Part shown: piece after piece, positions 22,630 to 63,065 of the stretch
Position numbering within the stretch: the stretch's first letter is position 1
Layout of the letters: each line of letters starts with the position of its first letter
Assembly: GCA_018335295.1 (NCBI GenBank)
Contig: JAGXKI010000003.1
Coordinates: forward strand, 1-64,000
Source: a bacterium
GTDB lineage: Bacteria; Acidobacteriota; Aminicenantia; Aminicenantales; Aminicenantaceae
Reading direction: 5' to 3'
DNA: 64,000 nucleotides
Position numbers and translations under genes: made by a program
The notes under the pieces: model-generated
What the model was told of the DNA's origin: nothing
The model's input: only the letters and a program-made list of their open reading frames with translations
Databases searched by the model: none

Positions 22630-22731
22630 AAGATAACCTTAATTTTGTATCTAAACAATTTTTCTTCAGAATAGTAGCAAAGGGGGTTAAGCAAGTCAAC
22701 TGGAGAAAGAAAAGTGTAAGCATCTCTTATT

Positions 22732-23059
22732 CCGTGATAGGGGGTGAGGGATGGGGGTCGTCAGCACGCTAATTTCACCCATCGAGAACTCTGGGGAAAA
22801 GCTCCGCTTTCCCCCTTCCGACGGTCGCTCAAGCTCCCTGCCTCCCTTCTCGGGCTTACACCCTGCGACCAAGGGGCCATACCCCCTTGGATCCCCCACT
22901 GATTTGTGAAGATTCCCAAATCAGTCAAATTAGCTCCCATTCGGACTTCGCTCTCCTCTCCTATGGAGAGGAACCGTGCCCGCTCAGTCCTCATAGGGGC
23001 TTCCTCACCCCCATCCCTCACCCCTTTCAATAAGTAGAGATATTTATACTTATCACGGT
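22732..23059 (+). repeat. MITE-like structured repeat, copy A
   Basis: Near-identical to copies B and C; 17-bp perfect core TIR (ggggtgagggatggggg ... cccccatccctcacccc) and outer ccgtgata/tatcacgg. Confidence 0.88.
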
Positions 23060-23229
23060 TTTGGAGATGCTTCCAAGAAAAGTCCCGGCAAGGCTTCTTC
23101 AAAAGAAAATCTGCCTCTATTTATGTGCCTGGTTACACTTTTTTATTCCTGCAGGGAAACTTTTCACATCTTTGTTCCATCGAATTTATGTTGGGATCAT
23201 TCCAAAACCCTTTCTGTGGTTTCTCTGGT

Positions 23230-53692: not shown

Positions 53693-53776
53693 GCCTTCAT
53701 GATAATTCCCCCTAAGAAAAGAGTCAAGTTCAGAGTATTTCTTCTCAAACAGAAAGATGGGGAAGTATTCCCAATC

Positions 53777-54100
53777 CCGTGATGAGTATAAATAGCTCTA
53801 CTTTAAGATAGGGGTGAGAAAAGGGGGTCGTCAGCACGCTAATTTTCCCCATCGAGTACTCGGAGGGGAAAAGCTCCGCTTTCCCCCTTCCGACGGTCGC
53901 TCAAGCTCCCTGCCTCCCTTCTCGGGCTTACGCCCTGCGACCAAGGGGCCATACCCCCTTGGAACCCCACTGATTTGTGAACACTCACAAATCAGTCAAA
54001 TTAGCTCCCATTCGGACTTCGCTCTCCTCTCCTATAGAGAGGAACCATGCCCGCTCAGTCCTCATAGGGGCTTCCTCACCCCCATCCCTCACCCCTTTCA
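53777..54100 (+). repeat. MITE-like structured repeat, copy B (same orientation as A)
   Basis: Shares cargo with A and C; left flank ccgtgatgagtataaatagctctacttt matches the reverse complement of copy A's right flank. Confidence 0.88.
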
Positions 54101-54172
54101 AGGAATTAGGGATGATTACGAAAGATGGAATCGGCTTGTCATTTATTCTAAAAAAAAATATAATCCCCCCTC

Positions 54173-62786: not shown

Positions 62787-63065
62787 GGGGGAGAGAAGGG
62801 GGATGAGGAAACCCCTATGAGGACTGAACGGGCATGGTTCCTCTCCGAAGGAGAGAGTCCGAATGGGAGCTGATTTGACTGATTTGTGAATTGTCACAAA
62901 TCAGTGGGGGTTCCAAGGGGGTATGACCCCTTGGTCGCAGGGCGTCAGCCCGAGAAGGGAGGCAGGGAGCTTGAGCGACCGTCGGAAGGGGGAAAGCGGA
63001 GCTTTTCTCCTCCGAGTTCTCGATGCGGGAAATCAGCGTGCTGACGATCCCCCTTCTCTTCCCTA
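62787..63065 (-). repeat. MITE-like structured repeat, copy C (inverted relative to A and B)
   Basis: Same cargo in reverse complement; TIR gggggagagaagggggat / atcccccttctcttccc. Confidence 0.88.

Follow-up and report, generated by a model that had tools for sequence, protein, structure and literature searches.

A probable MITE family with nested palindromic modules in Aminicenantia

MITEs such as Correia, RUP and Nezha have inverted ends, a target duplication, no gene and many copies. In the Bacillus cereus group, the bcr1 repeats are folded elements of ~160-180 nt that begin and end with a short, fixed direct sequence, and the non-autonomous elements of the IS200/IS605 type (PATE) carry a hairpin at each end and have a fixed pentanucleotide target, with no further duplication. 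Palindromic, dispersed elements with hairpin ends are likewise found in the GTAG and CGTC REPs and their RAYT (PMC3733652), a source that also names the bcr1 repeats; REPs measure 20-40 bp and bear unpaired tags, and the CGTC REPs, too, are without a known transposase (PMC3733652). The BOX elements of Streptococcus are composite, with modules in permutations, inverted ends and duplications (PMC3049150).

Here we describe a repeat of which three copies lie in the window, i.e. the whole stretch of 64,000 nucleotides analysed. Its closest described architecture is that of the BOX family, with which it has in common a small composite modular build, terminal inverted repeats (TIRs), target duplications and strong predicted folding (PMC3049150). 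The likeness is one of architecture only, no sequence relation being seen, and there are differences: the host is another one, the modules are nested at hairpin tips and not in tandem, and one of them, module A, also occurs alone. We take the element to be a new MITE family, in its architecture a modular variant of the BOX kind. It resembles Correia, RUP and Nezha in the features named above, but its duplication is of 9 bp, its core is GC-rich and folded, and no parent IS was identified; it differs from REPs by its 359 bp and its target duplications. Module A alone is similar, by description, to bcr1 repeats (~160-180 nt, folded, direct sequence at the ends), from which it differs by its GTCAA, and to PATE, from which it differs by having no linked Y1 or TnpB partner. 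In the titles and opening abstract lines of the open-access papers searched on Aminicenantes with repeats or transposases, the family is undescribed.

Termini, footprints and size series of the outer element

A first-pass annotation had pointed to a ~280-bp core at 22739-23025 (plus strand), 53811-54096 (plus) and 62787-63065 (minus). All three copies are indeed there, with pairwise identities of 95.1, 92.6 and 93.4% over aligned bases, and all are intergenic as it had held, that is, between long ORFs, in gaps that are codirectional, divergent and convergent. The hairpins that it named are present as well, the ACTGATTTGTGA hairpin being imperfect in copy 1. Further copies, which it advised looking for beyond the window, exist: blastn with copy 2 gave 49 places (E<=1e-3) in its own genome, a 93%-complete MAG of 2.54 Mb in 107 contigs (G000), so that the repeat is not due to chance. 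Many of these are partial matches, which gave the first hint of modules.

The boundaries originally drawn were too narrow, and the TIRs taken to bound the core (GGGGTGAGGGATGGGGG) are part of an inner stem. Because of flanking 9-bp duplications, the true termini of copies 1 and 2 could be located farther out, at 22716/23074 and 53761/54119, each copy spanning 359 bp. Copy 1 (22716-23074, plus strand) is a complete MITE made of ends C, arms B and module A, with TIRs GTAAGCATCTCTTATTCCGTGATA and GGAAGCATCTCCAAAACCGTGATA, and is flanked by the target-site duplication AAGAAAAGT, identical at 22707-22715 and 23075-23083. Its module A core lies at 22788-22892, with the minus strand as the structured one (covariance model R1, 93.5 bits), and the right part of its arms B (repeat I4) at 22956-23012; this part includes the hairpin CTCTCC..GGAGAGG and a conserved GAACC[AG]TGCCCGCTCAG, and is kept in relatives. 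Copy 2 (53761-54119, plus strand) is a complete MITE of the same length, with TIRs GGAAGTATTCCCAATCCCGTGATG and GTAATCATCCCTAATTCCTTGA, the duplication GAAAGATGG at 53752-53760 and again at 54120-54128, a module A core at 53858-53964 on the minus strand (same model, 114.4 bits) and the right part of arms B at 54027-54083 (repeat I5). Relative to the outer ends, the inner block of copy 2 is inverted in comparison with that of copy 1. Copy 3 (62787-63065, minus strand; 89% identical to copy 2) consists of arms B and module A only, its module A core being at 62911-63017 on the plus strand (110.6 bits). The advised search for boundaries and target-site duplications therefore had a split outcome, perfect 9-bp duplications in copies 1 and 2 and none found for copy 3, which also has no outer ends C (the C-type terminal-repeat pattern) and in this respect speaks against a MITE. 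Rather than a uniform three-copy element, we are dealing with a nest of separable modules.

In a flank alignment, the outer ends of the family read GTAAGCATCTCTWATTCCGTGATAG at one terminus and GGAAGCATCTCCAAAACCGTGATRAG at the opposite one, with TIRs GTAAGCATCTC.. / GGAAGCATCTC.. whose length is ~22-25 bp in copies 1 and 2. This end pattern has 48 matches in its own genome (~2.5 Mb), against 0 for the reversed pattern. Pairing of ends yielded 33 candidate elements, some of the pairings being spurious; over these 33 pairs, the 9-nt flanks agree at a mean of 5.5 of 9 positions versus 2.46 when re-paired (maximum 3.5 in 10,000), and nine candidates, copies 1 and 2 and seven others, have a perfect 9/9 duplication, none extending to 10/10. 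Inverted repeats of ~22-25 bp together with perfect 9-bp duplications are what a DDE-type transposase leaves behind when it inserts an element by its ends, and these footprints show that the outer element is mobile. It is also short (65-359 bp), dispersed over many unrelated sites, and carries neither an ORF nor a transposase gene. The description as MITE-like has thus held up, and the element is very probably a non-autonomous DNA transposon, in which module A would be a passenger with a route of its own.

Elements sharing the same ends come in several sizes: 65 bp, with the ends only; ~103-120 bp, with the ends and a short GGGGTGAGGG stem; ~222 bp, with the ends and arms B; ~235 bp, where arms B bear an unrelated hairpin AAGAGAAGGGGTCAGACC..GGTCTGACCCCTTCTCTT at their tip; and 359 bp, where they bear module A. 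In one example, the tip pair is CCAGCGAG/AAAATCAGC without module A and CATCGAG..A..CAGTC/AAATCAGC with it, and an insertion in the loop separates the tips (for instance CCAGCGAGAAAATCAGC in L022 versus CATCGAGGACTCGG..A..CAGTCAAATCAGC in L004). Chimeric copies such as L018 show exchange between types. The nesting is modular, and the inner palindromes may have grown as further palindromic elements inserted into the hairpin tip or replaced one another there. Since one genome has both empty and filled tips, the family clearly exemplifies palindromic modules that are nested and exchangeable, and can be used for asking how MITEs gain and swap internal structure.

The copies with the REP-like hairpin AAGAGAAGGGGTCAGACC..GGTCTGACCCCTTCTCTT in place of module A are L019, L021 and L027 (contigs C84, C106 and C92 of G000). 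Element copies also lie at or near the ends of contigs C37, C38, C60, C32, C71 and C84, where the repeat probably breaks the G000 assembly; it may likewise account for assembly breaks in Aminicenantes genomes.

A DDE transposase would act in trans on the MITE ends. A transposase with matching ends, for which a search had been recommended, was not found among the families searched in its own genome, and no autonomous element with the same ends was seen with four transposase families searched, a list far from exhaustive, in this 93%-complete MAG. The IS1 family, whose ends and 9-bp duplication resemble those of the MITE, was suspected and then dropped for want of an IS1 transposase in its own genome (DDE_Tnp_IS1: 0 matches there, one sub-threshold match in 41). 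IS256 (Transposase_mut) is equally at 0 in its own genome, and DDE_Tnp_1 is represented by a single gene on contig C107, interrupted by an internal stop, at a locus that was read by eye. Solitary terminal repeats are truncated ends beside ORFs that, read by eye, do not look like transposases. The transposase gene may have been lost, may be unassembled, or may belong to a family outside those searched.

Fold and range of module A

Module A emerged as a coherent unit in an iterated profile search. Over 31 diverse sequences, a four-helix structure has 91.4% of its cells paired, and the stem covariation that the first-pass annotation proposed to look for is there: two-sided changes occur in 34 cells as compared with 9.8 after shuffling, none of 500 shuffles reaches 34, and slid-partner controls give 0-8 cells. 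The fold of module A is thus conserved. Most sequences show a tandem G.A step in helix 3, replaced by G-C/C-G in others, and an unpaired purine stretch, GAGAAGGGGAGGCAG, is conserved on one strand. Mismatches on the plus strand number 66 for A.C versus 24 for G.T, as counted in one alignment with relatedness ignored; since the A.C excess on plus is G.U-like on minus, it points to minus as the folded strand. The minus strand of the whole copy 2 folds at -163.8 kcal/mol, versus -126.7 +/- 5.2 for shuffles (z -7.1, 0/100).

Strong covariation, the purines and tandem G.A step on one strand, mismatches favouring one strand, and a fixed short GTCAA flank that resembles target-adjacent motifs are all what one would expect if module A were a mobile structured RNA, or an RNA-guided scaffold as in HEARO/TnpB, with a transcript that is functional or transposes. 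However, no match was obtained in Rfam at gathering and permissive thresholds, HEARO being absent even among the weak ones, and the zinc-ribbon domain of TnpB (PF07282) was found in 0 of 11 genomes, so we regard this as unlikely. The element had earlier been proposed as a possible mobile structured RNA; what stands of this is that the stems of module A are conserved and covary and that module A is mobile, while its folded form may be either RNA or single-stranded DNA. Such stable hairpins, in copies near genes, might also belong to a regulatory or terminator element domesticated by the host and kept for its effect on neighbour genes. Yet the window copies occupy codirectional, divergent and convergent gaps alike, and elsewhere module A lies in 19 codirectional, 8 convergent and 6 divergent gaps, with an orientation of 11 versus 8 in the codirectional ones; intergenic copies of the element and of module A follow no orientation rule, and a regulatory role of this kind is highly improbable.

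The covariance model finds 20 module A copies in its own genome, and one weak match (E 3e-5) among 97 sampled members of the phylum outside the order. A pattern scan of one genome per species (85,462 species) gave 69 stretches, nearly all in records of Candidatus Aminicenantes or Saccharicenans, and distant blastn gave no match in the plasmid and phage collections. At the sensitivity used, module A is nearly restricted to Candidatus Aminicenantes. Some stretches are in records under other names, namely Thermoplasmata, Nitrospirota, Clostridiales and a Desulfobacteraceae MAG (L119, L129, L135, L147), which are probably misnamed or mis-binned contigs.

Host sites and route of module A

In related Aminicenantes, module A also stands alone at unrelated sites, with fixed ends AGTCAA|CTTGGAGG...CGATCGTCAA|, the left end beginning AGTCAA|CTTGG and GTCAA being directly repeated at both sides. 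Some of these standalone copies are directly followed by a second, partial one that has the GTCAA in common. As in IS200/IS605-type elements, there are terminal hairpins and a fixed target, without a longer duplication. Some apparent right ends situated far from a left end were taken as chance matches in coding sequence, and an identity with integron attC was dropped on reading the sequence, since module A has direct rather than inverted ends.

Module A has other hosts than the MITE. It is found inside a third host repeat (GCGAC..TTTAGCC..), and in its own genome it interrupts two IS91-like gene copies (Y2_Tnp, E 5e-6). An uninterrupted paralog on contig C42 is 85% identical, the joined reading being 6 nt shorter, which places the empty site approximately. 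The two interrupted genes (L024 and L026, on contigs C107 and C8 of G000) have the same insertion, from which it appears that the IS spread with module A inside. One could regard module A as a class of its own among mobile folded nucleic acids, proper to Aminicenantia. It would insert by its own GTCAA-targeted route, enter the hairpin tips of other repeats (the MITE arms and the third repeat family) and thereafter travel with these, while selection for the route or for an RNA function would preserve its fold; we consider this possible, if rather doubtful. If such an independent route is borne out, module A would represent a novel type of small mobile structured element.

In the reading that we prefer, of a MITE with a passenger, module A would ride in the MITE and spread independently of it, the simplest route being a single-strand (HUH/Y1-type) process with a preference for hairpin loops. 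A Y1 driver is weakened by the fact that G041, a draft genome that is the source of most standalone copies and is thus rich in module A, has no Y1 gene, and that module A is absent from every Y1 locus examined; no Y1 TnpA with ends matching module A was found in G041 or at the Y1 loci. The same loci bear on whether the repeat is a REP/REPIN element moved by the RAYT (Y1) transposases of the genome. There are two Y1_Tnp genes in its own genome, the repeats are palindromic, and a REP-looking GGGGTCAGACC hairpin sits at some tips, but no RAYT gene bordered by this repeat was found at the Y1 loci, and at L087 (G000:C9:1-3059) a RAYT-like Y1 gene lies amid a number of copies of another hairpin repeat, GGGACATGATACCTATTTCC..GGAAACATGTATTGTGTCCC (GGGACATGATACC..), which is probably its own REP family. 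Moreover, Y1 enzymes are not known to make 9-bp duplications, and movement of the repeat by RAYT is extremely improbable.

Module A also lies within genes. In G033 it is in frame in the gene of a Cys-containing protein (L135, about 2606-2790), whose flanking sides also read on when joined, and in a Saccharicenans protein it is in frame after the N-terminus (L107, 1127-1259); these copies recall the Rickettsia palindromic elements. A further repeat, CCGGAGCCCATGAAGGAGGGTGGGAGGGTCTTGGCAAGGATGG, is found next to module A ends, or close to them, in several JAOUKO contigs (L118 at 3279, L121 in the left flank, L108 at 3264).
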